64,000 nucleotides of DNA from Bacteroides stercoris ATCC 43183 (GTDB lineage: Bacteria > Bacteroidota > Bacteroidia > Bacteroidales > Bacteroidaceae): the NCBI RefSeq assembly GCF_025147325.1, contig NZ_CP102262.1:2542001-2606000 (forward strand), in the 5' to 3' direction. The position numbers and the translations under genes are program-made. Of the stretch, positions 4,207 to 49,841 are shown one piece after another. Under the pieces are notes generated by a model. That model was not told the origin of the DNA. It did no database searches and saw only the letters and a program-made list of their open reading frames with translations. How positions within the stretch are numbered: position 1 is the first letter of the stretch; each line of letters begins with the position of its first letter.

Positions 4207-4355
4207 ATACCTCGGCTTGGTACGCGGAGTACCAACCGTTGGTATCTCTCGTACCACAGTGCGGTATTCGTAGTACCACAGTGTGGTACATGCCGTACCA
4301 AAGAGTGGTATGACAAGTACCAACGCGTGGCATGACAAATACCAAAGGGGGAAAC
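4207..4355. repeat. Palindromic 22-bp array 1 (seven units)
   Basis: Seven 17-bp units, each separated by exactly 5 bp, begin at 4207, 4229, 4251, 4273, 4295, 4317 and 4339. Consensus is RTACCAnnnnnTGGTAY with a single central base. Unit four, GTACCACAGTGTGGTAC, is a perfect 8-1-8 palindrome; the others have one to several mismatches. The array lies in the 491-base gap between the glucosaminidase gene and the efflux operon and has no reading frame of its own. The same unit type recurs at 29374-29544. Confidence 0.9.
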
Positions 4356-4463
4356 GGACGCTGAGGTGAGGAGTTTTCCCTGTTATCCCCTGTCGTTTAT
4401 ATTTCTTCCGCCGTACCATTGTGCTTTCTCTTCCGTCTGTTTCTTCTTTTCGTACAGTGCAGC

Positions 4464-4498
4464 TATCCGAAAATGTACAGAGTGTCCGAAAACGGACA
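4464..4498 (+). promoter_or_regulatory. Two enhancer-like palindromes for a sigma-54 activator
   Basis: TGTCCGAAAACGGACA (4483-4498) is a perfect 6-4-6 palindrome, extending to 4482-4499. Nineteen bases upstream, TATCCGAAAATGTACA (4464-4479) is a weaker copy. Tandem palindromes some 45-80 bases upstream of a -24/-12 promoter are typical binding sites for NtrC-family activators. No such activator gene is in the window. Confidence 0.6.
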
Positions 4499-4542
4499 CT
4501 CTTCTTTTTGCCTTAACGCTTGTTTTCAATGATTTATGTTTT

Positions 4543-4558
4543 TGGCACGGATTTGGCA
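4543..4558 (+). promoter_or_regulatory. Sigma-54 type -24/-12 promoter of the efflux operon
   Basis: TGGCAC-GGATT-TGGCA matches the sigma-54 consensus TGGCAC-N5-TTGCA with one mismatch and correct spacing of the invariant GG and GC. The start of transcription would be near 4569, about 70 bases before the membrane fusion gene. No TAnnTTTG element lies in this region, which strengthens the case. A caution: GGCACGGATT also occurs in a repeat family elsewhere in the window. Confidence 0.6.
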
Positions 4559-4640
4559 AGTATAAGGGCGAAGAATCGCAGGCTGTCCGTTTACGCAACA
4601 GGACGGCAGCAACGTAAAACGGTAAATAAAGACAGAAAAT

Positions 4641-5888
4641 ATGGATAGAGAGATTCCGAAAGAAGTTCGTAACAAAGAGCGTAACAAGAAAATCATTCGT
4701 TATGGCGGCATGGGCGCTGCGGGTATCGTCGTTATCAGTGTGCTCATCTCATTGATGCGCACGGGGGTGAAGGAGAAGGACATCGTATTCTCCCAGGTAA
4801 GTACAGGCACGATTGAAGTCAGCGTAAGCGCTTCCGGCAAGGTGGTTCCTGCCTTTGAGGAGATTATCAACTCGCCCATCAACACCCGTATTCTGGAAGT
4901 ATATAAGAAAGGCGGCGACAGCGTGGATATAGGCACGCCCATCCTGAAGCTGGACTTACAGAGCGCCGAAACCGACTACAAGCAGAAACTCGACGAGGAG
5001 CAGATGCGCAGCTACAAGCTGAAGCAGCTCAAGCTTGAGAATATGACCAAGCTGAACGACCTGGAGATGAAGATAAAAGTCTCCGCCATGCAACTGAACC
5101 GCAAAAAGGTGGAGTTGCGCAACGAGCAATACCTCGACAGCCTCGGTTCGGGTACTACCGACAAAGTGCGTCAGGCAGAGTTGAGTTATAACGTGGCGGA
5201 GCTGGAATACGAACAGTTGAAGCAGCAGTACGCCAACGAGAAGGAAGTGCTGGATGCCGAATATCAGGTACAGGAGCTGGACTTCAGCATCTTCAGAAAA
5301 ACGCTTGCCGAAACGAAACGCACGCTGGACGATGCGCAGGTCCGCTCGCCCCGCAAGGCAATCCTCACTTACATAAACAACCAGATCGGTGCGCAGGTGG
5401 CGGAAGGTTCGCAGATTGCCGTCATCTCCGATTTGAGCCACTTCAAGGTAGAGGGCGAGATAGCCGACACGTACGGCGACCGTATTGCCGCCGGCGGCAA
5501 GGCGATAGTCAAGATAGGCAGCGAGAAGCTGGAAGGTACGGTGAGCAGCGTCACTCCGTTGTCCAAGAATGGTGTTATTTCCTTCACCGTACAGTTGAAT
5601 GAGGACAACAACCGCCGTCTGCGCTCCGGCCTGAAGACGGACGTATATGTGATGAACGCTGTGAAAGAGGACGTGATGCGCATAGCCAACGCCTCTTACT
5701 ACGTGGGTCGCGGGGAGTACGAACTGTTTGTACGCAATTCCGACAAGGAGATTGTGAAACGCAAAGTGCAGTTGGGCGATTCCAACTTTGAGTTTGTGGA
5801 AGTTATTGGCGGCTTGCAACCGGGCGATGAGGTGGTGGTGAGCGACATGAGCCAATATAAGAACAAGAATAAGCTGAAACTGAAATAA
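4641..5888 (+). CDS. Periplasmic membrane fusion protein of an ABC efflux system
   Basis: A 415-residue HlyD/MacA-type adaptor. One N-terminal transmembrane anchor (about residues 22-40) is followed by a lipoyl/barrel-sandwich half, a long alpha-helical hairpin (about 105-225, rich in K, E, Q and L), the second lipoyl half (AQVRSPRKAILT, QIGAQVAEGSQIAVI) and beta-barrel and membrane-proximal domains. It would link the inner-membrane permeases to an outer-membrane channel. It is the first gene of the operon and lies 20 bases from the ATPase gene. No TolC-like gene is in this operon, so the channel must come from elsewhere. Confidence 0.87.
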   Translation: MDREIPKEVRNKERNKKIIRYGGMGAAGIVVISVLISLMRTGVKEKDIVFSQVSTGTIEVSVSASGKVVPAFEEIINSPINTRILEVYKKGGDSVDIGTPILKLDLQSAETDYKQKLDEEQMRSYKLKQLKLENMTKLNDLEMKIKVSAMQLNRKKVELRNEQYLDSLGSGTTDKVRQAELSYNVAELEYEQLKQQYANEKEVLDAEYQVQELDFSIFRKTLAETKRTLDDAQVRSPRKAILTYINNQIGAQVAEGSQIAVISDLSHFKVEGEIADTYGDRIAAGGKAIVKIGSEKLEGTVSSVTPLSKNGVISFTVQLNEDNNRRLRSGLKTDVYVMNAVKEDVMRIANASYYVGRGEYELFVRNSDKEIVKRKVQLGDSNFEFVEVIGGLQPGDEVVVSDMSQYKNKNKLKLK

Positions 5889-5907
5889 CAATTAAATACC
5901 TATCATT

Positions 5908-6573
5908 ATGATTAAGTTAACTGGCATCAACAAGATTTATCGTACCAACGAGATTGAAACCGTAGCGTTGGAGAATGTGAACCTCGAAGTGAACAAGGGG
6001 GAATTCCTCAGTATCATGGGACCTTCCGGTTGCGGTAAATCTACTTTGCTGAATATTATGGGTTTGCTAGATGCGCCTACCGGTGGCACGATTGAAATAG
6101 CCGGTACCAAGGTGGACGGCATGAAGGACAAGGAACTGGCGGCTTTCCGTAACCGGAAGCTGGGCTTTGTGTTCCAGTCTTTCCATTTGATTAACTCGCT
6201 GAATGTGCTGGACAACGTGGAGCTGCCTTTGCTGTACAGAAAGGTATCGTCCAAAGAACGTCGCCGCCTGGCAGAGGAAGTGTTGCAGAAAGTAGGCCTG
6301 AGCCACCGCATGCGCCACATGCCTACACAGCTCTCCGGCGGTCAGTGCCAGCGTGTTGCCATCGCACGCGCCATTATCGGCAATCCGGAGATAATCCTCG
6401 CCGATGAGCCTACCGGTAACCTGGACTCCAAAATGGGAGCGGAAGTGATGGAGCTGCTGCATCGACTGAACAAGGAAGACGGGCGCACCATCGTAATGGT
6501 AACCCACAATGAAGAGCAAGCCAGACAGACCTCAAGGACAATCCGCTTCTTCGACGGCCGTCAAGTAGAATAA
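5908..6573 (+). CDS. ABC transporter ATPase, MacB/LolD type
   Basis: A 221-residue cytoplasmic nucleotide-binding subunit. Walker A is GPSGCGKST, the Q-loop is VFQSFHL, the signature is LSGGQCQRVAIARA, Walker B is IILADEPTGNLD, and the switch histidine is in MVTHN. The LolD/MacB subfamily powers mechanotransmission-type exporters rather than transmembrane substrate channels. It is the only ATPase gene for the six permeases that follow, so it presumably serves all three permease pairs. Confidence 0.92.
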   Translation: MIKLTGINKIYRTNEIETVALENVNLEVNKGEFLSIMGPSGCGKSTLLNIMGLLDAPTGGTIEIAGTKVDGMKDKELAAFRNRKLGFVFQSFHLINSLNVLDNVELPLLYRKVSSKERRRLAEEVLQKVGLSHRMRHMPTQLSGGQCQRVAIARAIIGNPEIILADEPTGNLDSKMGAEVMELLHRLNKEDGRTIVMVTHNEEQARQTSRTIRFFDGRQVE

Positions 6574-6577
6574 CCCC

Positions 6578-6605
6578 CATAATCCATAACTTATAACTCA
6601 TAACT
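6578..6605. repeat. Heptamer tandem repeat
   Basis: Four consecutive 7-bp units, CATAATC, CATAACT, TATAACT and CATAACT, fill the gap between the ATPase stop and the first permease start. A longer heptamer array of related composition is at 23603-23693. Confidence 0.6.
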
Positions 6606-6610
6606 CAAAA

Positions 6611-7885
6611 ATGCAGACCATTCGCCAAGCTTTTATACTTTTACGGCAGAACCCGTTGCTGAGTACCATATTCATATTAGGTACGGCATTTGCCATTACC
6701 ATGATTATGGCGATTGTGATTACCTGGCAGATGAAATATGCCGACATCGAGCCGGAAGTGAACCGTAACCGCTCTCTCTACATAAGCAAGATGCATTTGC
6801 AGGGCAAGGAGAACAAGAACTGGAATAATTATACAGCCTGTTCGCCGGCTTTCATGAAGAACTGTGTGCAGCCGTTGCCCGAAGTAGAGGCCTGTACGGC
6901 ATTTGTTCCGGCAACGGTCGCCCTGGTTTCCATGCCCGACGGCACTAATGCGGTGAAAGTGGATGCTATGGAAACCGACCCGGGATTCTGGAAAGTGTTC
7001 CGGATGCAGTTTGTCGCAGGACGGGGATTCGATGATTCCGACCGGGGCGGTGATGTGTCCGCCATTGTCGTGGCTGCTTCTGTGGCGCGGAAACTGTTCG
7101 GCACTACGGATGCAGTAGGCAAGACGGTGCTGCTGAACCGTAACGAAGCGCGTATCTGCGGGGTGGTAAAGGATGTTTCGGTCATTGCGAAGGATGCTTA
7201 TGCGCAAGTGTGGCGCATGTATCCCGCCAAGTTGCAGGATGCCACTTCCATCTGGAGTTATGCCCAATCGCATACGGTGGTGGCGCTGGCACGTTCTTCC
7301 GAAGATATTCCGGCCATCAGGCAGGGAATAGCGAAGCGGGTGAAGGACATCAATGCCGTACAGGCCGAAACGCTGATGGACATTATGGAACAGCCCGATG
7401 AAATCGTGGCGCATGTCAACCATGTGTGGGCCAACGTGGGGCCGGATTTGCGGATGTTGTACATACAGTACGCTCTGGCATTGCTCATTGTTCTTTTAGT
7501 GCCGTCGCTCAATCTGTGCGGCCTGAGCAACAGCCGTATGCAGCAGCGCATCAGCGAACTGGGCGTGCGTAAGGCATTCGGAGCGACGCGCGGCGTACTC
7601 ATAAGGCAGATCTTGAATGAAAACCTCGTACTGACTCTGATTGGCGGAGCGGTGGGGCTGGTGTTCAGCTATCTGGCCGTGTACGGCATGCGTACGTGGC
7701 TGTTCACCAATAATCAGAACACCGGCACTTCCGGCGAGTTCGACCTGAGCATGTCGGTACTGTTCAGCCCTACGGTGTTCTGTCTGGCATTCCTTTTCTG
7801 TCTGGTCATCAACCTGCTGAGCGCAGGCCTGCCTACATGGCTTGCCGCACGGCACACAATTGTGGATTCTTTGAACGATAAATAA
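6611..7885 (+). CDS. ABC permease A1 (MacB/FtsX type)
   Basis: A 424-residue inner-membrane permease. One transmembrane segment near the N-terminus (about 18-40) is followed by a large periplasmic MacB-core domain containing an ARKLFGTTDAVGKTV block. Three C-terminal transmembrane segments carry the FtsX signature RISELGVRKAFGATRGVLI. It belongs to the A class, which begins with a short QAFILLRQNP-like cytoplasmic segment and shares the EPEVNRNRSLY motif with the A2 and A3 copies. It probably pairs with B1, which starts 13 bases downstream. The substrate is unknown; family members export peptides, lipids or drugs. Confidence 0.85.
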   Translation: MQTIRQAFILLRQNPLLSTIFILGTAFAITMIMAIVITWQMKYADIEPEVNRNRSLYISKMHLQGKENKNWNNYTACSPAFMKNCVQPLPEVEACTAFVPATVALVSMPDGTNAVKVDAMETDPGFWKVFRMQFVAGRGFDDSDRGGDVSAIVVAASVARKLFGTTDAVGKTVLLNRNEARICGVVKDVSVIAKDAYAQVWRMYPAKLQDATSIWSYAQSHTVVALARSSEDIPAIRQGIAKRVKDINAVQAETLMDIMEQPDEIVAHVNHVWANVGPDLRMLYIQYALALLIVLLVPSLNLCGLSNSRMQQRISELGVRKAFGATRGVLIRQILNENLVLTLIGGAVGLVFSYLAVYGMRTWLFTNNQNTGTSGEFDLSMSVLFSPTVFCLAFLFCLVINLLSAGLPTWLAARHTIVDSLNDK

Positions 7886-7898
7886 AGCGAGATTGATT

Positions 7899-9176
7899 AT
7901 GAAATTCATAGTACATAACTTACGTATGATTCGGGCGCGTCTCCGCAGTAACGGATGGGTGCTTGCAGAATTGTTTCTGGTATTTATCGTGATGTGGTTT
8001 CTCTGCGATTCGCTGGGATGCCTGAAGTATACGTTCTATCGCCCGTTGGGCTATAACATAGACCATGTGTACCAGCTTTCAATGATTAAGGGCGGTGAAA
8101 GCCGGGACAGCAGCATGACGAGTGCGGACAAATACCTGGGCATCCTGCAGAAGCTCGAAAGGGAGCCTGCGGTTGAAGTGGCCGCCCTGTCGTATTGGAG
8201 CCTGCCGATGAGTGGCAATAATTCCTATAACTCGCTGGCTGTGCAGGATACCATCGGCTGTGCAGTGCGCATAATAAACGCTACCGGGGGATATACGCGG
8301 GTATTCCGCATGAAGGAAGATGCCAAACGTCCGTTTGCGGCAATGCCTGTGAGGGGTGATGTCACATCCGGCAATTATGTGATGCTGAGCGAGGGTGCGG
8401 CCGACTATTATAAGGAAAGAGTACCCGGCTTCTCTTTGGATACTCCCTTGAGCTGGTACGGAGATTCCGCGAACGTGGTAACACAGTGCGGCATGATCGG
8501 CAGTTTCCGTTCCTATCGCTATGGGGCAGATGCAGAGTGGGCTTTCCGGAGAATTGACGAGAATGTGATACGGACCGAATTGCGGGATGATGGAGCGCAG
8601 ATTGTTTTCCGCGTGAAGGAAAACATGGACTCTCCCGATTACCGGAGCAAGTTTCTGAAAGAGATAGCCCCGCATCTGGACACCGACAATATGTTCATAG
8701 CCGACGTTGTGCCTTATACGGAGCAGCAATATCAGTTTGAAGTGATGAAAGGCGATGTGGATAAGGTGAATACGCAAACGGTTGTGGTGGTATTCCTGTT
8801 GGTGAATGTGTTCCTGGGGCTGATAGGCACTTTCTGGTTCCGCACCCGTAGGCGCCGCAATGAAATAGCTTTGCGGCTTGCCATGGGCAGCACGAAGAAG
8901 CAGATATTCTGCCTGCTCATGGGGGAGGGATTGCTGTTGCTGACTCTTGTTACGCTGCCCGCCATGATTGTCTGTTATAACGTGGGCATTGCCGAATTTA
9001 CAATGGGACATACGGAACTGATTACCACCTGGCCGGTGAAATGGAGCTTCCTGCGTTTTCTGCTGGGCTCGTTGGGTGCATGGCTGCTGATAGCGCTGAT
9101 GGTGGTGATTGGAATATGGTTCCCGGCACGGCAGGCTATCAAGATACAGCCGGCAGAGGCGTTGCACGAAGAATAG
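7899..9176 (+). CDS. ABC permease B1 (MacB/FtsX type)
   Basis: A 425-residue permease of the second class in this operon. An N-terminal transmembrane segment (LAELFLVFIVMWFL) is followed by a periplasmic domain divergent from class A. The C-terminal half has GLIGTFWFRTRRRRNEIALRL before the last helices, and the protein ends with IKIQPAEALHEE. The ATG at 7899 was preferred to the in-frame TTG two codons upstream. The B copies (also 11157 and 13708) share the GTFWFRT and PAEALHxE motifs. A heterodimer with A1 is inferred from gene pairing. Confidence 0.84.
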   Translation: MKFIVHNLRMIRARLRSNGWVLAELFLVFIVMWFLCDSLGCLKYTFYRPLGYNIDHVYQLSMIKGGESRDSSMTSADKYLGILQKLEREPAVEVAALSYWSLPMSGNNSYNSLAVQDTIGCAVRIINATGGYTRVFRMKEDAKRPFAAMPVRGDVTSGNYVMLSEGAADYYKERVPGFSLDTPLSWYGDSANVVTQCGMIGSFRSYRYGADAEWAFRRIDENVIRTELRDDGAQIVFRVKENMDSPDYRSKFLKEIAPHLDTDNMFIADVVPYTEQQYQFEVMKGDVDKVNTQTVVVVFLLVNVFLGLIGTFWFRTRRRRNEIALRLAMGSTKKQIFCLLMGEGLLLLTLVTLPAMIVCYNVGIAEFTMGHTELITTWPVKWSFLRFLLGSLGAWLLIALMVVIGIWFPARQAIKIQPAEALHEE

Positions 9177-9205
9177 AATGTGAAACAAAATAAAAAAGAA
9201 GAAAT

Positions 9206-9829
9206 ATGAGAACTGATATAGCGGGTGTTATCATTGCATTGGTATTGGCCTTTGCAGGTATGCTAAGTGTTTGTGCACAAGATGCAAAAGTAAGTGAAGT
9301 ACGTAAGGTGGATGCTTTCTCGTCCATTGAGATAACCTCTGTGGGGACAATTCATTTTACACAGAGTGATACTTATTCTTTCAGGATTGAAGGCAGGGAG
9401 AGGTACGTGAAGAATACGCAGACCACAGTGAAGGACGGCCGTCTGCTGATAGGTTTCAAGGACGGGAAAAACAAGCGCAGGAGCAATCAGAAGGATGGCG
9501 TGACTATCTGGATTTCGGCTCCCGACTTGAAGGAGGTGGAGTTTACCGGTGTAGGCGAATTCAAATGTGAGAAGCCCTTGAAGCTCGATGCCGTGTCATT
9601 CGAGATAAAAGGTGTGGGTGAAGTGAATGTCTCCGACTTGACGTGCAACGAGCTGAAAGTTGCCTTGCGCGGAGTAGTCAGCGCCGATATTCATGTAACC
9701 TGCGACTATTTGTCCGCCAAAATGGGTGGTGTGGGCAGTGTCACTTTGAGCGGAAGCGCCGGACGCGCTGATATTTCCAAAGGAGGCATAGGAGGCGTAA
9801 ATACAGATAATTTAAAAATAGGCCGTTGA
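9206..9829 (+). CDS. Exported GIN-domain (DUF2807) protein
   Basis: A 207-residue protein with a signal peptide (hydrophobic residues 6-22, cleavage after VCAQ) and one head GIN/DUF2807 domain. The domain is built of repeated beta-strand units such as EVEFTGVGEFKCEKPL, SFEIKGVGEVNVSDL and SAKMGGVGSVTLSG, which suggest a right-handed beta-solenoid. DUF2807 proteins are common in Bacteroidetes but have no assigned biochemical role. The gene sits between permease pairs one and two and ends one base before the A2 start region, so it is surely co-transcribed. A role at the cell envelope with the exporter is inference. Confidence 0.82.
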   Translation: MRTDIAGVIIALVLAFAGMLSVCAQDAKVSEVRKVDAFSSIEITSVGTIHFTQSDTYSFRIEGRERYVKNTQTTVKDGRLLIGFKDGKNKRRSNQKDGVTIWISAPDLKEVEFTGVGEFKCEKPLKLDAVSFEIKGVGEVNVSDLTCNELKVALRGVVSADIHVTCDYLSAKMGGVGSVTLSGSAGRADISKGGIGGVNTDNLKIGR

Positions 9830-9830
9830 G

Positions 9831-23499: not shown

Positions 23500-23602
23500 A
23501 ATTCTTTATATCTTTATGTAAATTAACTGATTAAACATCGGTGCTCATACCTCTTATCACCTATGTGTTTACCGTATTCCTCATCCTTTATTTTAAAATC
23601 TC

Positions 23603-23693
23603 TTATACCTCATACTTCATACCTTATACTTTACATTTCGTACCTTATGCTTCGTATTTTGTACTTCATCCCTTATGCTTCTTACTTTGTCCT
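23603..23693. repeat. Heptamer tandem array between bioC and bioD
   Basis: About thirteen consecutive 7-bp units run from 23603, for example TTATACC, TCATACT, TCATACC, TTATACT, TCGTACC and TTATGCT. The register is kept without slippage and the last units overlap the end of bioC. The rest of the gap from 23500 shows no gene or promoter. Confidence 0.7.
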
Positions 23694-24662
23694 TCCTCTT
23701 TTTCTCGCTATTACATAAATCGGGTGATAAGTCAGCGAAACACTACGGTCGTCCTTGCCGTACATCCGGATATATTCCTCGCAGAAACTTTGCAGGCGTC
23801 CGCGCGTCCAGACTCTCTTTTCCGTCCCGGTAACGCCGGTTTGTCTGAGGTGTTGCAACACTTCGAGCGGAGTGTCGAATGGCAGGGAGACAATCTCTTC
23901 TTCGGCATAAAGAACCTCGAAGCGGGAAGACAGCAAGGCTTTTAGTTCTTCGAGCGAGAAGTACTCCAGTCCGTGTCCGGTCAGGGTATGTATCTCCTGC
24001 ATATTCCTCTTGCCGAAAGTGCTGAATGCGAGAATGCCACCGTCCGATAGGAAGTGGTGGCAGCGGGTGAAGAACCGTTCCGTATCGGCAAACCATTGCA
24101 GGGTGGAGCAGGACGTTATCAGGTCTGTCCCTTGCGGGAAATCAAGAGTTTCCGCATCACACGGCAAAAAGCTGACGGCAGGGGATATAAGCGGGTTTCC
24201 GTAAAGTGGCACTTTAGCTTTCTCAAGTGGCACTTTAGCGCCGTAGAGTTCTACTTTATCATCGTAAAGTAGAGGTTTATGAGGCAGAGGTTCACCGGCC
24301 GGCAACAAATCGCAGATACACTCCCTCATTTCGGGACACAAGTCGTTGAGCAGCAGAGTTTCCGGTTGCAATGCGTGCAGCAGCAAACGGGAGTAGCACC
24401 CGGTTCCGCATCCGAACTCTACGATATGGCGGAAGGGGGAGGCGTTGCCTGACAAACTTCGCGTATTGCCCTCGCCGTTGTGTGCCGCAGCAGACGGGCA
24501 GGCATGTTTCGTGAGCAGGCGCAGCATTTTCTCCGCCACCTGCTGCTGCACAAGAGCTTCTCGGCCGTACGTATTCCGTGCATGGGCAAAGCGTCTTGCA
24601 ACGAGGGCTTTGTCGATGGATTGAATGGTACTGCAAATCATTTTCTGTTTCGTTTCATTCAA
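23682..24662 (-). CDS. bioC: Malonyl-ACP O-methyltransferase BioC with a repeat-encoded insertion
   Basis: A 326-residue SAM-dependent methyltransferase that masks malonyl-ACP as its methyl ester to prime pimelate synthesis. The SAM motif IVEFGCGTGCYSRLL, the post-I acidic residue region (LLLNDLCPEM) and SCSTLQWFADTERFF are typical of BioC. E. coli BioC is about 250 residues. The excess includes residues about 128-154, where the palindromic array at 24202-24279 encodes a heptad-like peptide with KVELYGA, KVPLEKA and KVPLYGN. The insertion lies between the DLCPEM motif and FLPCDAETL, probably a surface loop. The start overlaps the bioG stop by eight bases. Confidence 0.88.
   Translation of the reverse strand: MNETKQKMICSTIQSIDKALVARRFAHARNTYGREALVQQQVAEKMLRLLTKHACPSAAAHNGEGNTRSLSGNASPFRHIVEFGCGTGCYSRLLLHALQPETLLLNDLCPEMRECICDLLPAGEPLPHKPLLYDDKVELYGAKVPLEKAKVPLYGNPLISPAVSFLPCDAETLDFPQGTDLITSCSTLQWFADTERFFTRCHHFLSDGGILAFSTFGKRNMQEIHTLTGHGLEYFSLEELKALLSSRFEVLYAEEEIVSLPFDTPLEVLQHLRQTGVTGTEKRVWTRGRLQSFCEEYIRMYGKDDRSVSLTYHPIYVIARKRGRTK
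24202..24279. repeat. Palindromic 21-bp array 3 inside bioC (four units)
   Basis: Four 15-base units start at 24202, 24223, 24244 and 24265, a strict 21-base pitch: TAAAGTGGCACTTTA (perfect 7-1-7 palindrome), a TCAAGTG-type variant, TAGAGTTCTACTTTA and TAAAGTAGAGGTTTA. Twenty-one bases equals seven codons, so the gene stays in frame. Architecture matches the 22-bp arrays elsewhere in the window, but the arm sequence differs. Confidence 0.85.
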
Positions 24663-25428
24663 TATTTATGGTTTTGACATGATATCTGAATTCACTGGCA
24701 GTCATCTCCCACATATCTTGCAGCAGAAAGCGGAACATGGACTCGTCATAGTGTGCGTTGTCCGTCAGGACCGGATGGCAGTCTATCAGGTCGCAAAAGT
24801 TCATCTCCATGTTTTCGGGCGGGAAAATCCGGTCGTTCTTGCCGATGAAGGCGTAGTTGTATTCGTAGTTATACTTTTCGATGTTTGCCTCATACTTATC
24901 TTCCTTTTCCTCGTCGTAACTTTTGTTATTAGCGTCTCCGAACATATCGAAGTACCGCTCCAGAATGAGCCTCAGTTCTTCCTTTATTTCGTCGAAGTCC
25001 CGTCGGGGAGTCACTTCCATGAATGCCTTGTAGGCGTTGCTGTCCTTGCACATGCGGCGCAGGAACTTCTGGAGCGTTGCGGGGGTAAGCCCGTTGAGAG
25101 TAGCCTGAAAGGTGTTCACGGGGATACCTTCCAGATTGTCGATGGGGTATGTAGTTCCGTTGAACGCCAGGCTGAACACCTTGTCCCGGGAGACTTGGCT
25201 CAGTATGAGAGAGCCCATCCACACACCCATGGACCAGGCTACCACGTTTACTTGCCGGTAACGGTCGAAGATGGAATAGTCGAAGTCCAGCGTGCGGTAG
25301 TCGTAGCAAATCATGTAGTCCATGTTTTTGGGACGGTACTGCTTGAAGGGAGTTTCGTCCGCTGCCCAACCGGCAAAGAAAAGGAGTAACTGGGGATGGT
25401 TCTCGTTGATAATGTACACTTGTTTCAT
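24655..25428 (-). CDS. bioG: Pimeloyl-ACP methyl ester esterase, BioG type
   Basis: A 257-residue alpha/beta-hydrolase of the DUF452/BioG family, which removes the methyl ester from pimeloyl-ACP. Visible features are the oxyanion-region FFAGWAADE and the nucleophile Ser66 in AWSMGVWMG. BioG replaces BioH in many Bacteroidetes. Its place between bioF and bioC fits that role exactly. The stop overlaps the bioC start, indicating translational coupling. Confidence 0.88.
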   Translation of the reverse strand: MKQVYIINENHPQLLLFFAGWAADETPFKQYRPKNMDYMICYDYRTLDFDYSIFDRYRQVNVVAWSMGVWMGSLILSQVSRDKVFSLAFNGTTYPIDNLEGIPVNTFQATLNGLTPATLQKFLRRMCKDSNAYKAFMEVTPRRDFDEIKEELRLILERYFDMFGDANNKSYDEEKEDKYEANIEKYNYEYNYAFIGKNDRIFPPENMEMNFCDLIDCHPVLTDNAHYDESMFRFLLQDMWEMTASEFRYHVKTINIE

Positions 25429-29373: not shown

Positions 29374-29544
29374 ATACCTCTATGGGGTACGGAAAGTACC
29401 AAAGGCTGGTATGGGAAGTACCAATGTTTGGTACGTCGGATACCAACGTTTGGTACAACGGCTACCAACATAGGGTACGATGAATACCAACCGTTGGTAT
29501 TGTCGGTATCCCACGGTGATATTCATTGTACCCAACGGAGGTAT
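29374..29544. repeat. Palindromic 22-bp array 2 (eight units)
   Basis: Eight 17-bp units start at 29374, 29396, 29418, 29440, 29462, 29484, 29506 and 29528, each followed by a 5-bp spacer. They share the RTACCAnnnnnTGGTAY consensus of array 1. Unit six, ATACCAACCGTTGGTAT, is a perfect 8-1-8 palindrome; unit seven is the most decayed. The array lies between the nrdG stop (29589) and the biotin promoter, so it is downstream of nrdDG and upstream of bioBA. Confidence 0.9.
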
Positions 29545-29588: not shown

Positions 29589-30089
29589 TTATAACTTCGG
29601 GTTGTAAACGTAATCCACCGCTTTTTTGGCTTTCAGCGACGCTTGTACGTCTATCAGCCGTTGGTTGCTGCTGCCACGGAAGTAGAGATCTTCGTCGCGC
29701 AGTTCTTCTTTGAATTTGCCGTCCACCAGCACGTCGATGTACTCCAACAGTTTTGCCTGGCGGGGATTGTGCAGTAACGTTTCAAATGTATACCCCGTAT
29801 AGCACCAGATGTTCTTCCGGCTCTGCCGCTTGATGGCATGTGCCAGTTCGGTGAAGCCTTCGGGCTGGTACATAGGGTCGCCACCGCTGAATGTCACATC
29901 GGCAAAGCTGTCGGCAAGCACCTTTTGCAGTATTTCATCGGTGCTCATCCAGCGTCCGCGGTTGATGTCCCACGATTCCGGATTATGACAGCCCGGACAT
30001 CCGTTGGGACATCCGGCTGCGTAGATGGCGGTACGGAATCCCGGACCGTCCACCGTAGTATCTTCTATTATATCAAGAATGGAAAGCAC
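29589..30089 (-). CDS. nrdG: Anaerobic ribonucleotide reductase activating enzyme
   Basis: A 166-residue radical-SAM enzyme that generates the glycyl radical on NrdD. The cluster motif is C27, C31, C34 in CPNGCPGC, and the GGDPMY segment binds SAM. Length is typical. It lies 10 bases after nrdD on the same strand, the usual nrdDG order. It allows deoxynucleotide synthesis without oxygen, in line with an obligate anaerobe. Confidence 0.95.
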   Translation of the reverse strand: MLSILDIIEDTTVDGPGFRTAIYAAGCPNGCPGCHNPESWDINRGRWMSTDEILQKVLADSFADVTFSGGDPMYQPEGFTELAHAIKRQSRKNIWCYTGYTFETLLHNPRQAKLLEYIDVLVDGKFKEELRDEDLYFRGSSNQRLIDVQASLKAKKAVDYVYNPKL

Positions 30090-41268: not shown

Positions 41269-41284
41269 TTGTGCCCGTGCACAA
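41269..41284. promoter_or_regulatory. Candidate LacI-type operator 1
   Basis: TTGTGCCCGTGCACAA is a 6-4-6 inverted repeat with perfect arms, seven bases upstream of the regulator start. A related site lies at 41351-41367. The length and central CG resemble LacI-family operators. Confidence 0.5.
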
Positions 41285-43316: not shown

Positions 43317-43357
43317 TTATTATATTTCATTTTGTTTAAAGGTGTTTAAAGGGGACA

Positions 43358-43398: not shown

Positions 43399-43525
43399 TA
43401 CCCGGTGTAATGCTTTCGGCGGATAGTGTGTCACATTGGTAGCATTTTAACTGTTTACAAGTGTAAAAGAGACGCTTAATCTCTAAAACAATGTTATAAA
43501 ACACACACTTCTTTCCCCTCCTGTT

Positions 43526-43556
43526 TGCGCACACGGAAAAAAGTATTACCTTTGCA
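43526..43556 (+). promoter_or_regulatory. Strong orphan Bacteroides promoter
   Basis: TTTG at 43526-43529 and TACCTTTG at 43549-43556 are separated by 19 bases, the ideal spacing. No protein gene begins within 400 bases downstream. Confidence 0.7.
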
Positions 43557-43562
43557 ATGCAG

Positions 43563-43820: not shown

Positions 43821-43919
43821 ACACGAGGCGAGGGGTTCGGAAGAGCTTGCTCGTTTTTTTATTTCTGTATTTTATGCTCACTTTTTTGTATATTCTGTCC
43901 AAACTCTTCCCGTTTTTTG

Positions 43920-43927
43920 TATCTTTG
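43920..43927 (+). promoter_or_regulatory. Promoter -7 element of the plus-strand polysaccharide arm
   Basis: TATCTTTG matches TAnnTTTG, about 64 bases before the first glycosyltransferase codon. No TTTG is at the right distance for -33. Confidence 0.5.
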
Positions 43928-43990
43928 TAACGAATGTCCGGCAGGCAGGCTTTCCGGAACATAGAACAACAGGCTTAAATTGCATGGATT

Positions 43991-45163
43991 TTGGAACACT
44001 TGTTATATACTCTTGATTGGTTGCTATACATTTTATTCGCGATAAATGTGGCATATCTGCTGGTGTGCAGTCTGGCATCGCTGTGCCGTTACAAGCCGTT
44101 CGTTACCGCACCGGCCCGGACAAGCAAGCGTTTTGCTGTGTTCATTGCCGCTTATCGCGAAGATGCGGTTATATTGCCTACCGTGCATGCCTGTCTGGCG
44201 CAGGATTATCCGGATGACAGATATGATGTTGTGGTTATTTCGGACCACATGCGGCCCGAAACCAATGCAGTTTTGTCTTCACTTCCCATAAAGCTGCTTC
44301 AAGTCGATTTTGAGAAGAGCACCAATACCAAATCCCTGCAAGCAGCCCTCGGATATTTGGACAAAGCCGCTTACGACATAGCATTGGTAATAGATGCGGA
44401 TAACATTATTGCTCCTTCCTACCTGTCCGAGCTGAACGATGCTTTCTCCGTGTCCGGCGTCCGGGTGGTACAGACACATCGCGTGGCCAAGAATCTGAAT
44501 ACCGGTATGGCCTATCTGGATGCAATCAGCGAGGAGATAAACAATTCCATATTCCGTTTGGGACATGTCAATTTGGGAATGTCGGCGGCTCTGATAGGTT
44601 CGGGGATGGCCTTTGAATATCCCTTGTTTTACGATGCGATGATGGATAACACTTCTGTGGGCGGTTTTGACCGCGTGCTGGAAATGAAGCTTCTTTATAA
44701 GAGCATACACATTCATTATCTGCCCGATACTATCGTCAGGGACGAGAAGATACAGAAAGCGAACAGCTTTTACAAGCAGCGTCGCCGTTGGCTGTCCGCC
44801 CAGTATTACAGTTTCTTTGAGTTTGCCAATCACCTGCTACCTGCCATTCGCAGCGGGAAGTGGGACTTCTGCGATAAGCTTTATCAGCAAATCTCTCTTT
44901 CCAGAGTGTTGCTGCTGGGCTTTGTGTTCATAATTTCCCTCGCACATTCCCTGTTCGCGTCTCCGTCGGCCTGTAAATGGTGGGGGATATTCATACTGTT
45001 GCTGTTGGCGCTGGCTCTCGCCATTCCCCGCAAATATTGGAAATGGCGTTTGCTGAAAGCGGTTTGTTGGGTTCCTTACTCTTTCCTGCTGATGCTTTTG
45101 AACCTGTTCCGGCTGAAGGAAGCGAACAGGCGGTTTATTCATACCACGCACGGAGTCGATTGA
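43991..45163 (+). CDS. Membrane family 2 glycosyltransferase (BcsA-like core)
   Basis: A 390-residue membrane enzyme. One N-terminal transmembrane segment (about 8-30) precedes a GT-A domain with VFIAAYREDAVILPTV and the DxD-like IDADNIIAPS. QRRRWLSAQ (a QxxRW motif) and three to four C-terminal transmembrane segments follow. It would extend or export a glycan chain. No in-frame ATG exists near the start; TTG at 43991 is the only reasonable initiator after the in-frame stop. It is the first gene of the plus-strand arm and a paralogue of the protein at 54008-55198. Confidence 0.82.
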   Translation: MEHLLYTLDWLLYILFAINVAYLLVCSLASLCRYKPFVTAPARTSKRFAVFIAAYREDAVILPTVHACLAQDYPDDRYDVVVISDHMRPETNAVLSSLPIKLLQVDFEKSTNTKSLQAALGYLDKAAYDIALVIDADNIIAPSYLSELNDAFSVSGVRVVQTHRVAKNLNTGMAYLDAISEEINNSIFRLGHVNLGMSAALIGSGMAFEYPLFYDAMMDNTSVGGFDRVLEMKLLYKSIHIHYLPDTIVRDEKIQKANSFYKQRRRWLSAQYYSFFEFANHLLPAIRSGKWDFCDKLYQQISLSRVLLLGFVFIISLAHSLFASPSACKWWGIFILLLLALALAIPRKYWKWRLLKAVCWVPYSFLLMLLNLFRLKEANRRFIHTTHGVD

Positions 45164-45174
45164 AAAATTATGCC

Positions 45175-46221
45175 ATGGAACGGAACATCCCCGAAATATC
45201 AGTGATAGTGCCTGTATATAACGTCGAGCAATACTTGGCCGAATGTATAAGCAGCATTTTATCGCAAACGTTTACTGATTTCGAGTTGCTGTTGGTAGAT
45301 GACGGCAGCCCGGACCGTTGCGGGGAAATCTGTGATGAATATGCGGGTAAGGATAAGAGAGTAAGAGTTTTCCATCAGGAGAATGCAGGGTTGAGTTGCG
45401 CCCGGAACAAAGGGCTGGAGCACGCATCGGGGACTTATATTGCATTTGTCGATTCGGACGATTACGTCACTTCCACCTATTTGCAGGAGCTTTACGCATC
45501 ATTGCCTGCCGATAAGTCTCAAAGAGGAACGGTAATCTGCGGGTTCGATAAACTGTTTCCCGACGGTTCTTTGCATACCGTTCATGTTCCGCAACAAACC
45601 ATCTTGCCGATGGACTGTTCGCGTGTGCTTGCAGAACTGGTTGGAAAGTACGTAATGTATGCCTGGGCAAAGCTGTATGACAACAGGCTGATAAAGGAAC
45701 ACGGTATCCGGTTTGTTCCTGCTGTGTCGGGATTGGAAGATATGCTCTTTATGCTCGACTATCTTCCTTATTCGGATTATCTGCTTATCCGCGATACTTC
45801 CACCTATATATATAGGGTGGGATATTCTATGGCTACATTATCCACTTGCATAAAAGATTTCCGCAGCGAATACGCCGCTTTTTCCAACTATCTGGAAAGA
45901 GTATGCCGATATAAGGAAACCTATCGGTTGGAGGATTCCTCTTTGGTCGGGGTATGGGATTCATTAACGGTGTTTTTTCATAAAATCCTGTTGGCAATCT
46001 ATAAGAAAGAGAATCATTATAGCCGAAAAGAGCGGATTGTTTTTTTGCGTCAGTTGCTTTCATCCCACAGGAGGTGGATAGAAGAATGCTTCTCTCCCCG
46101 GTATAAGGTGGATAAGTTCTCAAGGTTTTTGCTGGTCAATGTCGGTGCGGTTGCTTTTGATGTGTGGATGCGCTGCCTGTGGGGAATTAAGTTCAGGTAT
46201 ATGTTTGGAGCGGAAAGATGA
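45175..46221 (+). CDS. Family 2 glycosyltransferase
   Basis: A 348-residue cytoplasmic GT-A enzyme. ISVIVPVYNVEQYLAECISS binds the nucleotide, LLVDDGSPDRCGEICDEY and FVDSDDYVT give the DxD metal site. The C-terminal part is variable and probably sets the acceptor. The start MERNIPEIS was chosen because the frame upstream overlaps the previous gene by 66 codons without homology. It overlaps the next gene by four bases (ATGA), so the two are coupled. Confidence 0.87.
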   Translation: MERNIPEISVIVPVYNVEQYLAECISSILSQTFTDFELLLVDDGSPDRCGEICDEYAGKDKRVRVFHQENAGLSCARNKGLEHASGTYIAFVDSDDYVTSTYLQELYASLPADKSQRGTVICGFDKLFPDGSLHTVHVPQQTILPMDCSRVLAELVGKYVMYAWAKLYDNRLIKEHGIRFVPAVSGLEDMLFMLDYLPYSDYLLIRDTSTYIYRVGYSMATLSTCIKDFRSEYAAFSNYLERVCRYKETYRLEDSSLVGVWDSLTVFFHKILLAIYKKENHYSRKERIVFLRQLLSSHRRWIEECFSPRYKVDKFSRFLLVNVGAVAFDVWMRCLWGIKFRYMFGAER

Positions 46222-47258
46222 TGGAACAATGTGTCATATCTGTAATAATACCGGTCTATAAGGCAGAAAAATACCTTTCCCGTTGTATCGCAAGTCTGCT
46301 TGCCCAGTCTTTTACAGCTTTTGAATTGTTGTTAATCGATGACGGCAGTCCTGACAACAGCGGCAAGATATGCCATGACTGGGCTGAAAGAGACTGCCGC
46401 ATCCGTGTGCTGCATCAAACGAATGCAGGTGTCAGTACGGCCCGCAACAAGGGGCTGGATGAAGCGAAAGGAGAGTATATCGTTTTTGTCGATTCGGACG
46501 ATTATGTAGGTACGGACTATCTGAAACATCTCTATGAGGAAAGGCCTTTGAATCTGGACTCCATTGTTGTACAGGGATTTACAATTGTGTCGGAGCAGGC
46601 AGACAGGCAATATACAACCTCTTTTATTCCGTCGGTCTATACCGGTAGAGATGTCAGGGAGCTGTTTCTCAATGATGAGATGCGGGATATGCGGGGACCG
46701 GTTGCCAAACTTTTCAGCCGGGTTCTCATTGAGCGGTTGGGGTTACGCTTTCCAGCAGAGATTTCTTTCGGTGAAGATACGATATTCAATTTTCAATATT
46801 TGTTTCATTGCCGGCAGGTGGTTGTAGGCAGCCATGTAGATTATGTCTATTGCGACGTACCCGGTTCTTTGACAAAGCGTCTGAATGATTTTGCATCGGA
46901 GTATGCAACTTTCAAATTATATAAATCGATTACTGTACGGCTTGCCGGAAAGTTAGACTTGAATGTGGCGGATATGAGAACAGCTTTCTCCTTTGTCGTG
47001 CTGTTTTTCCAGCGTGCATTGATTGCCGACTATCGCTCTGCCGGGAAAGTTCCTTTCTCATTACGGACACAACATTTGCGCCGGTTGGCAGCGGAACAGC
47101 GCTCTTTTATGAAAGAGTTTTATCATCCCGGATATAAAGCGGACAAGTGGGGCAGGCAGTTCCTGTTGCATGGTTTCTGCTTTTGTTATAATCTCTATAT
47201 GTCCATACTTTGCAGTTGCCTGTTCAGGTACGTATTCGGTTATTCCGAAAAGGCATAG
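46218..47258 (+). CDS. Family 2 glycosyltransferase
   Basis: A 346-residue GT-A enzyme, close in its first 110 residues to the preceding protein: ISVIIPVYKAEKYLSRCIAS, LLIDDGSPDNSGKICHDW and FVDSDDYVG. The C-terminal regions are also alignable, suggesting duplication followed by change of specificity. The start may be ATG 46218 or 46221. The donor sugar cannot be predicted. Confidence 0.87.
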   Translation: MMEQCVISVIIPVYKAEKYLSRCIASLLAQSFTAFELLLIDDGSPDNSGKICHDWAERDCRIRVLHQTNAGVSTARNKGLDEAKGEYIVFVDSDDYVGTDYLKHLYEERPLNLDSIVVQGFTIVSEQADRQYTTSFIPSVYTGRDVRELFLNDEMRDMRGPVAKLFSRVLIERLGLRFPAEISFGEDTIFNFQYLFHCRQVVVGSHVDYVYCDVPGSLTKRLNDFASEYATFKLYKSITVRLAGKLDLNVADMRTAFSFVVLFFQRALIADYRSAGKVPFSLRTQHLRRLAAEQRSFMKEFYHPGYKADKWGRQFLLHGFCFCYNLYMSILCSCLFRYVFGYSEKA

Positions 47259-47291
47259 GGCAGGTCTGGTTTCATTTTACGATAAGAAGAA

Positions 47292-48188
47292 ATGGAAATT
47301 CTATATTCAATCATTATTCCCCATAAGGACATACCTTGCCTGTTGCAACGGTGTCTCGATTCCATTCCGCCCAGGGACGATGTGCAGATTATCGTGGCAG
47401 ATGATGACAGTTCCCCGGATGTTGTGGACTTTGCTCATTTTCCGGGCAGTGACAGGGCGGATGTGGAGATTCTCTTTACCAAAGAGGGCAGAGGAGCCGG
47501 TTATGCCCGTAATTGCGGACTTGCCAGAGCCAAAGGCAGATGGCTGGTATTTGCGGATGCCGATGATTTCTTTCTGCCCGGCTTCCTGAACGTATTGGAT
47601 ACTTACCGGAATACGGACTATGACTTGATTACGTTCCGTGCGGAAACAGTCGATTCGGATACACTGGCTCCGGTTCCGTCACGCCAGGTCCATAATGGGA
47701 AAATAGCGGAGGACATGGACCTTGAAATTCTGAAATACCGTAACGACGTACCCTGGGCTAAGATGGTTTCCGCAGAATTGGTGCGCAGATACCGTATTTG
47801 CTTTGATGAAACGGTTGCCGCCAACGATGCCATGTTTGCCGCTTATGTGGATTACCATGCCCGTAAAGTAGCGGCATGTTCCGGGTATGTTTATTGTGTC
47901 ACAGTCAGAAAAGATTCATTGCAGTATGGAGTGCGGTCAGACACTCTTCTTGCCCGTGTAAAGGTTGCTTGCCGTTACAACCGCTTTTTGCTGGATATAG
48001 GGCGTAGCGATAAGGTACTTTACAGTTATTCCCGTGTGACGGATTGCCGCAAGCACTTCGGCAGTAAAGGATATTGTAGAGCTTTGTGTATTTATCTTCG
48101 GTTTGAAAGTTGGAAAAACATATACAGGACTTTTGCAGAACTGTTGAAAAGTAAGTTTCATTGTACTTCCATAACCAAGGTTTTATAA
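47292..48188 (+). CDS. Family 2 glycosyltransferase
   Basis: A 298-residue GT-A enzyme of a different subgroup from the two before it. YSIIIPHKDIPCLLQRCLDS and IIVADDDSSPDV bind the nucleotide, and VFADADDFFLPGF holds the DxD. The C-terminal half is short. It lies 33 bases after the previous gene in the same transcript and 13 bases before the flippase gene. Confidence 0.85.
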   Translation: MEILYSIIIPHKDIPCLLQRCLDSIPPRDDVQIIVADDDSSPDVVDFAHFPGSDRADVEILFTKEGRGAGYARNCGLARAKGRWLVFADADDFFLPGFLNVLDTYRNTDYDLITFRAETVDSDTLAPVPSRQVHNGKIAEDMDLEILKYRNDVPWAKMVSAELVRRYRICFDETVAANDAMFAAYVDYHARKVAACSGYVYCVTVRKDSLQYGVRSDTLLARVKVACRYNRFLLDIGRSDKVLYSYSRVTDCRKHFGSKGYCRALCIYLRFESWKNIYRTFAELLKSKFHCTSITKVL

Positions 48189-48201
48189 ATAATGTTTTAC
48201 A

Positions 48202-49731
48202 ATGTCAGAATCCCGCCTCCATAAAAGCTATCTGAATGCGCGTGTCAATGTATTCTTTTACCTTGTCACCCTTTTCATCTCCTTTTTCTCCAGGAAGATA
48301 TTTCTTGAGAAACTGGGGGCGGACTTTGTCGGGCTGACGAGTACGATGCAGAACCTGCTTGGATTTCTCAATCTGGCGGAGCTGGGCATCGGAGCTTCCA
48401 TCGGCTATGTGCTTTACAAACCGATTTTCGACGGAAATCGGGACAGGATAAAGGAGATTGTCTCGGTACTGGCTTATCTCTATCGTAACGTAGGACTGCT
48501 GATTTTGGGTGCGGGACTGCTTTTGGCCTGCTTCCTGCCCTATATATTCGCCGATGCCGGCATTCGCCTTGGAGTAATCTATTTTGCTTATTTTGCATTT
48601 TTGACTTCCGCTCTCATCAGTTATTTTGTTAATTATCGGCAAACCCTGCTGGGCGCCGACCAGCGCAACTATGTAGTCACTGTTTATTTTCAAACGGCCA
48701 ATATCGTCAAGATTCTCCTGCAAATAGCATTGGTATGCTACGTGGGCAGTCTTTATCTGTGGATAGCCATTGAACTGACATTCGGCATTTTGTATTCGTT
48801 CATACTGAACTGGAAGATAAACCGGGTATATCCGTGGCTGAAGTGCAGTGTGTCGGAAGGCAGACTGAAATATCCGGAGAATAGGATTATTGTGCGTAAA
48901 GCCCGTCAGATGTTTGTGCATAAGCTGGCGGGAATGGGCAGAACGCAGCTTTTGCCTTTTCTGGTCTACGCATTTACTTCATTGAAACTGGTGGCGTATT
49001 ACGGTAACTATATGCTGCTGCTCACCAAGCTGAATCAGTTTGTCGATAACTTTCTGGGCAGTACCGGCGCAGGGGTGGGCAGTCTGATAGCCGAGGGGGA
49101 TATGAAGCGTATCCAGCAGGTATTTTGGGAGTTAAGCTCATTGCGCTTTTTGATAGCCTCGTTTCTGACGTTCGCGTTGTATCATCTGATGGACCCGTTC
49201 ATTACGGTGTGGCTGGGCGAGGAGTACATACTGCCCCGTTCCGTCTTGATTGTGATTCTTACCAACTTCTTTATCAGTCAGTTCAGGGGTACGAACGACC
49301 AGTTCATTTTCGGTTACGGACTGTTTCACGACACATGGGCGCCGGTTGCCACACTGGCGATAACAGTAGCGGTGGCATTGGCAGGCGGCTATTTGTGGGG
49401 ACTTCCGGGAGTATTGCTGGGAGATATAGCCAGTTCGATAACCGTTATCAGTATCTGGAAGCCTTACTTCCTTTACAAAGAGGGGTTTAAAATGTCCGTG
49501 AAGTCATATTGGAAAAATATATTCCGGTATCTGCTGCTTGCCGTTCTTGCATGGGGGCTGACGGATGCGGTACTTTGTTTCCTTCCGTTGGCGGAGCCGT
49601 CCCGGGGATATGGCATGTGGATTGTATATGCGCTGGTCTCCTCTCTGGTATTTCTGCTGATATTGTGCAGCAGCTTCTATTGCTGTTCGGCAGGGATGCG
49701 TTCGCTGGTGAAGCGTTTGCGGCGTAAATAG
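48202..49731 (+). CDS. Polysaccharide flippase (Wzx-like, MATE/MOP superfamily)
   Basis: A 509-residue polytopic protein with about 12-14 hydrophobic segments and RKIFLEKLGADFVGLTSTMQNLLGFLNLAE near the start (only the key GADFVGL and LNLAELGIG blocks are needed for recognition). It resembles the PST/Wzx transporters that flip undecaprenyl-linked repeat units across the inner membrane. It is the last gene of the plus-strand arm. The stop is followed at 26 bases by a palindromic array. Confidence 0.86.
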   Translation: MSESRLHKSYLNARVNVFFYLVTLFISFFSRKIFLEKLGADFVGLTSTMQNLLGFLNLAELGIGASIGYVLYKPIFDGNRDRIKEIVSVLAYLYRNVGLLILGAGLLLACFLPYIFADAGIRLGVIYFAYFAFLTSALISYFVNYRQTLLGADQRNYVVTVYFQTANIVKILLQIALVCYVGSLYLWIAIELTFGILYSFILNWKINRVYPWLKCSVSEGRLKYPENRIIVRKARQMFVHKLAGMGRTQLLPFLVYAFTSLKLVAYYGNYMLLLTKLNQFVDNFLGSTGAGVGSLIAEGDMKRIQQVFWELSSLRFLIASFLTFALYHLMDPFITVWLGEEYILPRSVLIVILTNFFISQFRGTNDQFIFGYGLFHDTWAPVATLAITVAVALAGGYLWGLPGVLLGDIASSITVISIWKPYFLYKEGFKMSVKSYWKNIFRYLLLAVLAWGLTDAVLCFLPLAEPSRGYGMWIVYALVSSLVFLLILCSSFYCCSAGMRSLVKRLRRK

Positions 49732-49756
49732 AATGCATACATGTGGAGTTTATTAT

Positions 49757-49841
49757 AGTTTATCCCCATTAAACTGAAAGTTTATTCCTATTGAACCGGA
49801 AGTTTATTCCTAATAAACTATGAGTTTAATGGGGATAAACT
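49757..49841. repeat. Palindromic 22-bp array 4 (four units) between convergent arms
   Basis: Four 19-bp units start at 49757, 49779, 49801 and 49823, separated by 3 bp. Consensus is AGTTTAnnnnnnnTAAACT. The first unit AGTTTATCCCCATTAAACT is the exact reverse complement of the fourth, so the array as a whole is also an inverted repeat. It lies between the flippase stop and the stop of the convergent glycosyltransferase, one base from the latter. Confidence 0.88.

Follow-up and report, generated by a model that had tools for sequence, protein, structure and literature searches.

Extragenic palindrome arrays with a single 22-bp pitch and differing sequences in Bacteroides stercoris and its relatives

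A 64,000-bp window of the Bacteroides stercoris ATCC 43183 chromosome (NZ_CP102262.1, positions 2,542,001 to 2,606,000) carries four arrays of short palindromes, three of them extragenic with a pitch of 22 bp (arrays 1, 3, and 4) and one inside a gene with a pitch of 21 bp (array 2) (Table 1). Extragenic arrays of the same pitch but of many different sequences recur elsewhere in this genome and in other genomes of the genus. Their pitch is fixed, their half-sites are conserved between orthologous arrays, and they lack the strand bias of an RNA. One exact spacing, kept across differing sequences, suggests a structure at the DNA level or a copying process that has not been described before. Our preferred reading, to which we assign a probability of roughly 0.46, is that the arrays may be phased half-sites in double-stranded DNA for a candidate oligomerising DNA-binding protein. 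No description of 22-bp palindrome arrays in Bacteroides was found in the literature, the sources being chiefly openly accessible ones and including the accessible parts of PMC5771137 and PMC12306157.

One pitch shared by unrelated sequences

A generic palindrome scan that presupposed neither arm sequence nor pitch (three units with 5-bp half-sites, pitch 16 to 40) gave five matches in the window. Four of them, at 4284, 29407, and 49780 (pitch 22) and at 24212 (pitch 21), are the four arrays named in a preliminary description of this DNA, which are thereby confirmed as real; the fifth, at 41281, has a pitch of 26. Twenty second-order Markov windows yielded one match in all over the whole pitch range, and a second set of 20 yielded 0 matches at pitch 21 or 22.

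Arrays 1 and 3 belong to a family built from TACC-N7-GGTA units. Across the complete genome, a single contig of 4,007,931 bp, the self-complementary pattern TACC-N7-GGTA-N7-TACC-N7-GGTA matches 65 times per strand and its reversed control 0 times. The count stays at 65 when the spacer is freed to 0 to 20 bp; all 65 adjacent intact pairs thus stand at a 22-bp pitch, and the absence of slippage claimed for the window extends to the genome. Three units with up to two mismatches give 79 matches (control, 0). The family comprises 18 separate arrays with 118 units, 4 to 8 units per array. The preliminary description had given the units arms of 7 to 9 bp around a central G or C. The central base is G or C in 74 of the 90 intact units, but the near-constant part of each arm is only about 5 bp (TACCA/TGGTA), and the unit profile is a symmetric 15-bp TACCA-N5-TGGTA. 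Perfect 15-bp palindromes make up 21 of these 90 units (expected, 5.0; maximum of 500 shuffles, 12), and the excess is weaker in Bacteroides clarus (11 of 49; expected, 4.0; shuffle maximum, 11). The perfect-palindrome count is the only pairing signal that stands out in the B. stercoris genome itself; pairing between unit and spacer ends also looked high in 123 other arrays, a set that pools many genomes and in which species structure may produce the effect.

Several minor features of the TACC arrays were recorded (loci and genomes are cited by our own L and G numbers). The core AACCGTT, on either strand, occurs in 8 of the 18 arrays and TTACTAA in 5, the mean maximum in column shuffles being 2.7. 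TTTC/GAAA replaces TACC/GGTA at array ends and sometimes inside arrays (L172, L175, L178, L180, L181, L182, L183, and L184); one unit of this type, TTTCTTAGGTTGGTA in L180, is kept in B. clarus, and in the window the half-site at the end of array 1 (4340-4354) reads TTTC or GAAA rather than TACC or GGTA. The GC skew of 41 stretches switches sign near 0.8 and 2.8 Mb, with L193 and L176 as exceptions. Ten of the 18 arrays lie within 2.19-3.04 Mb, near the terminus presumed from this skew, which is suggestive only; an arc test on the array positions gave a P value of 0.019 for an arc picked after looking, and we make no claim from it.

A second 22-bp family, TAAAC-N5-GTTTA, includes array 4. A looser pattern with up to one mismatch matches 16 times in this genome (control, 3), and a tighter pattern with up to two mismatches 17 times (control, 0). 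The tighter pattern matches in 18 of 60 genus genomes, this one included, and at least three times in 12 of the 18; its control matches once each in 6 genomes, and genomes with one or two matches may reflect chance. In genome G157 the tighter pattern matches 43 times; many of these matches are of the type TAAACTGACAGTTTA, which is likewise a palindrome of 15 bp repeated at pitch 22. Palindromic arrays with a 23-bp pitch also occur outside called genes of B. stercoris, at L170:1790-1900 and L172:2060-2170 (TGCAG/CTGCA and CGACA/TGTCG).

The combination of a constant pitch with changing sequence was upheld far beyond the window. Stretches chosen regardless of arrays (360 kb of this genome and 200 kb each of G188, G205, G171, and G176) gave 43 palindrome-scan matches (7, 11, 6, 10, and 9, respectively), 28 of which have a pitch of exactly 22 bp (6, 7, 6, 7, and 2). 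Near-22 pitches were found in three matches of G188 and one of G176 (23 bp) and in one of G171 (21 bp). The arms include TGCC/GGCA, GTTTC/GAAAC, GTTTG/CAAAC, GAATG/CATTC, and TGTACA, and the distance between half-sites ranges from 7 to 11 over the 28 pitch-22 matches while the pitch stays constant between families. The preliminary description had set such arrays against the density expected in shuffled or unrelated DNA of like composition. Third-order Markov copies of the five-genome stretches gave 2 matches (pitch 32 and 36) against the real 43, and 200 kb of Escherichia coli gave 0, although its composition is not like that of every Bacteroides stretch.

Among 54 intergenic tandem arrays with periods of 8 to 60 in the same five genomes, found with no palindrome required, 32 have a period of 11, 22, 33, or 44, some of them without palindromes, and 24 have a period of exactly 22 bp. 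The only array in the Markov copies had a period of 31; the E. coli stretch gave no intergenic period of 11, 22, 33, or 44 and a single array of period 18.

Beyond the genus, 29 stretches from 16 genomes were scanned (9 of the same family and 7 outside it; the samples are small and many contigs short). Pitch-22 palindrome matches appeared in 2 of the 9 same-family genomes (1 and 4 matches) and pitch-21 matches in 3 of the 9, namely, G010, G015, and G043 (Alloprevotella tannerae, sampled because of its TACC array); neither pitch was matched in the 7 genomes outside the family. Within the family, G010 and G022 have direct repeats with a period of 22 or 44; outside it, G231 has a period of 22 and G221 one of 11. 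The two-unit TACC pattern matches in 6 of 60 genus genomes, 2 of 151 family genomes, and 1 of 118 phylum genomes, with this genome counted each time. At least 119 named loci (L016 to L134) hold three TACC units, and 90 among the matches listed are titled Prevotella or Prevotellaceae; the other holders listed include Xylanibacter brevis, Hoylesella saccharolytica, Alloprevotella tannerae, Parabacteroides, Bacteroides gallinarum, B. clarus, and Bacteroides propionicigenes. TACC arrays were also seen in contigs labelled Psychrobacter and Thermoanaerobaculia (L042 and L109), which could be mis-binned, and the two-unit pattern in 35 viral-contig stretches of IMG/VR (L135 to L169).

Half-sites are conserved at inherited positions

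Eleven of 12 sampled B. clarus arrays align together with their flanks to an array place in the B. stercoris genome, L210 falling at the place of array 1; the twelfth (L221) aligns by one flank only, at 69%. The slot of L171 is common to B. gallinarum and B. propionicigenes, and that of L173 to B. clarus and B. propionicigenes. Over the 11 orthologous pairs, half-sites are identical at 501 of 532 positions (94.2%), a value inflated because both array sets were detected by intact half-sites. Identity is 65.4% (308/471) in the interiors, which misplaced units in the alignment could lower, 62.3% (250/401) in the spacers, 83.6% (1,979/2,366) in the intergenic flanks, and 86.1% (2,388/2,774) in the coding flanks. 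When the first exact unit pair in B. clarus is left out, half-sites are identical at 325 of 356 positions (91.3%), interiors at 65.3%, and spacers at 60.2%; when such pairs in either genome are left out, the values are 229 of 256 (89.5%), 64.1%, and 61.6%. The contrast of half-sites with interiors and spacers stands after correction for detection.

Orthologous arrays differ by 22-bp gaps in the alignments, and unit number varies between species. Interiors and spacers are more alike within than between arrays in all six comparisons of adjacent units: 0.45 to 0.48 versus 0.33 to 0.38 for units of other arrays in B. stercoris, and 0.66 to 0.69 versus 0.32 to 0.38 in L016 to L134, the latter pooled over many genomes. 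The units therefore probably arose by local duplication followed by divergence, with the half-sites diverging least, and growth of the arrays by 22-bp local duplication is strongly suggested.

Some of these slots are occupied by different sequences in different species. The slot scan used a threshold of 28; 150 random 700-bp pieces of this genome scored 27 or less, bar one of 33. Some slot loci ended early at contig ends. At the slot of array 1, beside a LysM gene, a pitch-22 match at or above the threshold was found in 5 of 30 genus loci fetched. Three are TACC arrays (this genome, B. gallinarum, and B. clarus), G205 has CCGATATTAGTTTG repeats, just at the threshold, and G188 has 11-bp TACGGAG repeats. 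At the slot of array 3, beside an NrdG-like gene, 2 of 21 correctly oriented loci have a pitch-22 match, this genome (TACC) and G188 (CACTTGTACAAGTG, 22-bp pitch); the same slot of B. clarus, G172, and G204 holds no array above the threshold. In B. gallinarum (L261), a pyrimidine-rich AGGG/CCCT palindrome repeat of about 22 to 24 bp, judged by eye, follows the LysM-gene TACC array. A broader and more tentative proposal, in which we place distinctly less confidence than in the phased half-sites, is that 22-bp arrays of Bacteroidaceae chromosomes occupy inherited intergenic slots whose sequence is replaced as species diverge. Such arrays would form a lattice element defined by its geometry rather than its sequence, in which either a family of fast-evolving DNA-binding proteins or a 22-bp copying ruler would hold the pitch constant as the recognition code shifts.

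Arrays lie between genes and close to gene ends

The preliminary description had raised the position of the arrays relative to genes. None of 153 TACC-type arrays (one a duplicate) overlaps a called open reading frame by more than 30 bp, as judged by a simple gene caller that assigns 77 to 81% of the checked sequences to genes. Sixty-seven arrays lie between genes on the same strand, 35 between convergent genes, and 20 between divergent genes, and 31 have an incomplete flank. The median distance is 84 bp to the 3' sides of genes and 187 bp to the 5' sides, with 86 of 156 3' sides and 23 of 119 5' sides within 100 bp.

Pfam scans of 14 of the 36 genes beside the 18 TACC arrays of B. stercoris revealed no functional theme; the families include gyrase A-type, MutS-type, trigger factor, PhoU, UxuA, and class I (E and Q) tRNA synthetase, among others. 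The clearest neighbour family recurring across genera is DUF6078-like, with seven loci (L020, L037, L040, L061, L094, L096, and L119) in seven genomes of Prevotella, Hoylesella, and Bacteroides, where the arrays lie 10 to 62 bp downstream of the gene. The domain was assigned by scanning L040 and L119, and the seven genes cluster as one family.

A model of phased half-sites on DNA

Each helical turn of about 11 bp would present one half-site of 4 to 6 bp, and half-sites would pair into 15-bp palindromes repeated every 22 bp. A dimeric DNA-binding protein most likely sits on each palindrome, and neighbouring dimers may contact each other on a single DNA face, bending or wrapping the DNA in the manner of Lrp/AsnC-type proteins. 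The protein, the cooperation of its dimers, and the role of the arrays are what we infer; our guess at the role would be a part at gene ends, in chromosome folding or in insulation, and not the control of promoters. Several families per genome and half-sites that differ between species would imply either several proteins or one protein with a fast-evolving specificity. Extra half-sites in the same orientation speak for this model: TACC stands 11 to 12 bp upstream of 21 of 152 arrays, and GGTA stands at this distance downstream of 25 of 152 (duplicate locus L085 dropped), compared with 0 to 4 at other offsets from 4 to 31. These outlying half-sites, along with the variable half-site distance at a constant pitch, favour double-stranded DNA read on one face.

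Lrp-type proteins offer the closest working analogue. Their usual site length is 15 bp. In the available text of PMC2995911, Lrp-type sites are palindromic, lie on one DNA face at intervals of two or three turns with several per cluster, and are wrapped, and the site in one named cocrystal is 13 bp. The arrays share the short palindromes (15-bp units), the single face, and the two-turn spacing (22-bp pitch) of Lrp/AsnC operator clusters but lie at the ends of genes and between convergent genes no less than they lie upstream of genes, which is not the placement of a control region. Clustered regularly interspaced short palindromic repeats (CRISPR) likewise combine short repeats with differing spacers; CRISPR repeats are 24 to 48 bp long according to the accessible portion of PMC3733652, whereas the arrays have 15-bp units and 7-bp spacers and occupy 18 TACC loci in one genome.

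Several observations weigh against the model. The corrected half-site identity (89 to 91%) is only slightly above that of coding flanks (86%). Part of the regularity of the arrays is inherited through duplication. Placement is not promoter-like, being nearer to stops than to starts, and no binding protein was identified for the arrays. Covariation of the arms, which the preliminary description named as a sign to look for, holds between families, where both arms change together, but no compensatory changes are seen in the variable core when 42 orthologous unit pairs are compared. Moreover, 4 of the 28 pitch-22 matches are plain 11-bp direct repeats, all in G188, which a dimer model does not predict; without them, 24 of 39 matches have pitch 22. 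The direct 11-bp arrays seen in the 200 kb sampled from G188 are of the TACGGAG/CTCCGTA type (L291:9807, L294:4817, L296:12128, and L299:13853).

If the model is correct, these gut bacteria, a large group that has been studied in depth, possess a class of extragenic element that has gone unrecognised. Each genome would probably hold dozens of arrays, a figure extrapolated from the 18 TACC arrays, the 7 or more arrays of the TAAAC family, and the 6 pitch-22 matches in 360 kb, and the arrays would be largely inherited in place between close species. They would then give a direct route to a protein or process acting on intergenic DNA in Bacteroidota, whose chromosome-folding factors are, to our knowledge, poorly known, and would explain one origin of variable tandem repeats, as well as of in-frame protein repeats such as those of the coding array.

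Alternative explanations

The main rival is a ruler-like duplication process that serves no function. In this somewhat unlikely scenario, replication or repair in Bacteroidaceae duplicates intergenic DNA in steps of 22 (or 11) bp, palindromes promote the process, and the arrays are its by-product. The greater likeness of adjacent units than of units from other arrays, the 22-bp gaps between orthologous arrays, and the multiples of 11 bp in 32 of 54 intergenic tandem arrays, some without palindromes, are as it would predict. Bacterial intergenic minisatellites (variable-number tandem repeats) are a natural class for comparison here: they too consist of tandem units that vary in number between species, but in our arrays one period dominates over unrelated sequences, with 24 of 54 at exactly 22 bp. 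Even when corrected for detection, the identity of half-sites exceeds that of interiors, spacers, and intergenic flanks, and within a single genome the same half-site is found in 18 separate arrays; neither observation is accounted for by local duplication alone.

It is improbable that gene ends are transcribed into strings of short RNA hairpins with a role in mRNA stability, in termination, or as protein decoys. Each unit can form a short hairpin, and the closeness to 3' sides (medians of 84 and 187 bp for 3' and 5' sides) is in keeping with such a role. However, on the presumed sense strand of the 67 same-strand arrays, A-C and G-U mismatches number 22:15 in the core, 69:73 at inner, and 36:45 at outer positions, and this lack of a G-U strand bias favours DNA over RNA. 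The enriched perfect palindromes have a one-base centre, which leaves no room for an RNA loop; the window has 0 Rfam matches at the gathering score; 20 arrays lie between divergent genes; and hairpins do not predict the same-orientation half-sites outside array ends. Among the three mechanisms offered in the preliminary description, a protein scaffold on DNA fits best, duplication appears to contribute to array growth, and the RNA hairpin string is disfavoured.

We consider it very improbable that the units are recombination sites, with 4-bp arms around a 7-bp crossover region and the variable core as the overlap sequence. The 4-7-4 layout has this form, in 7 of 42 orthologous unit pairs the inverted copy is the closer match (a count made with no control), and TAAAC-family spacers are found in either orientation. 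A pitch of 22 bp is nevertheless tight for sites with two recombinase arms each, given the usual sizes of such sites, and the arrays keep their position and flanks between species.

Repetitive extragenic palindromic (REP) elements are defined in the accessible part of PMC3733652 as 20- to 40-bp stem-loops with GTAG or CGTC at one end, and the arrays resemble bacterial interspersed mosaic elements (BIMEs), as far as the text of PMC2817692 available to us describes them, in being extragenic, palindromic, and regularly spaced. An origin from a REP/BIME family spread by a REP-associated tyrosine (RAYT, Y1) transposase is disfavoured and the least probable of the alternatives, since the units are symmetric, 15 bp long, conserved only in their outer half-sites, and without a GTAG or CGTC tag at conserved positions, the exact 22-bp pitch is common to unrelated sequence families, a search of the complete genome with Y1_Tnp (PF01797) at an E value of 0.001 gives 0 matches, compared with matches in 5 of 14 control genomes, and 11 of 12 sampled B. 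clarus arrays lie at inherited places; a Y1-like gene missed by the profile, or loss of the gene after an ancient spread, would reopen it.

The coding array is an in-frame repeat insertion

Array 2 had been taken in the preliminary description as one more copy of the same design, an interpretation that did not hold. It differs from the intergenic arrays in being an in-frame insertion of a 21-bp repeat, and the 21-bp pitch preserves the reading frame. It encodes residues ~128 to 154 of a 326-residue BioC-like protein as a seven-residue KVPLYGA-like repeat. In B. clarus the insert at this position is longer, likewise in frame, and has KVPSENA-like repeats. Among 12 aligned loci, only these two carry the repeat: the insert is missing in the other 10 relatives aligned (18 other loci were fetched), where the conserved blocks almost adjoin, and one of the 10, G210, has a short unrelated insert between the blocks. 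The TAAAG/CTTTA family at a 21-bp pitch is also found inside a second called open reading frame of this genome (L191:6180-7427). Rickettsia palindromic elements are known to be inserted in genes. Array 2 resembles them as a palindromic in-frame insertion in a metabolic gene. Its tandem repetition of a 21-bp unit sets it apart from them, and arrays 1, 3, and 4 lie outside genes.

Arrays and neighbouring genes in the window

The genes adjoining the four arrays were assigned by Pfam and are listed with the array coordinates in Table 1.

Table 1. Positions of the palindrome arrays and adjoining genes in the 64,000-bp window
Feature	Position	Strand	Description
Extra half-site of array 1	4198-4201		TACC, same orientation, 10 bp upstream of array
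Array 1	4208..4354	n/a	7 TACC-N7-GGTA units, last degenerate; 22-bp pitch, 7-bp spacers
Array 2	24202..24279	-	TAAAG/CTTTA palindromes, 21-bp pitch, in frame within BioC-like methyltransferase gene
Array 3	29375..29543	n/a	8 TACC-N7-GGTA units, seventh degenerate; 22-bp pitch, 7-bp spacers
Array 4	49757..49841	n/a	TAAAC-N5-GTTTA units, 22-bp pitch, between two convergent genes
Glucosaminidase/LysM gene	3229..4149	+	Stop 58 bp before array 1; Pfam
BioC-like methyltransferase open reading frame	23682..24662	-	Carries array 2; TTG start as listed; Pfam Methyltransf_11
BioG	24655-25428		Neighbour of BioC-like open reading frame; Pfam
Radical-SAM/4Fe-4S (NrdG-like) gene	29589..30089	-	3' end 45 bp from array 3; Pfam
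Glycosyltransferase family 2 gene	49843..50796	-	3' end at array 4; Pfam

A further tandem repeat, heptamer-like (ATACCTC/ATACTTC) with listed periods of 7, 14, and 21, occupies positions 23602-23685 at the 3' end of the BioC-like gene.

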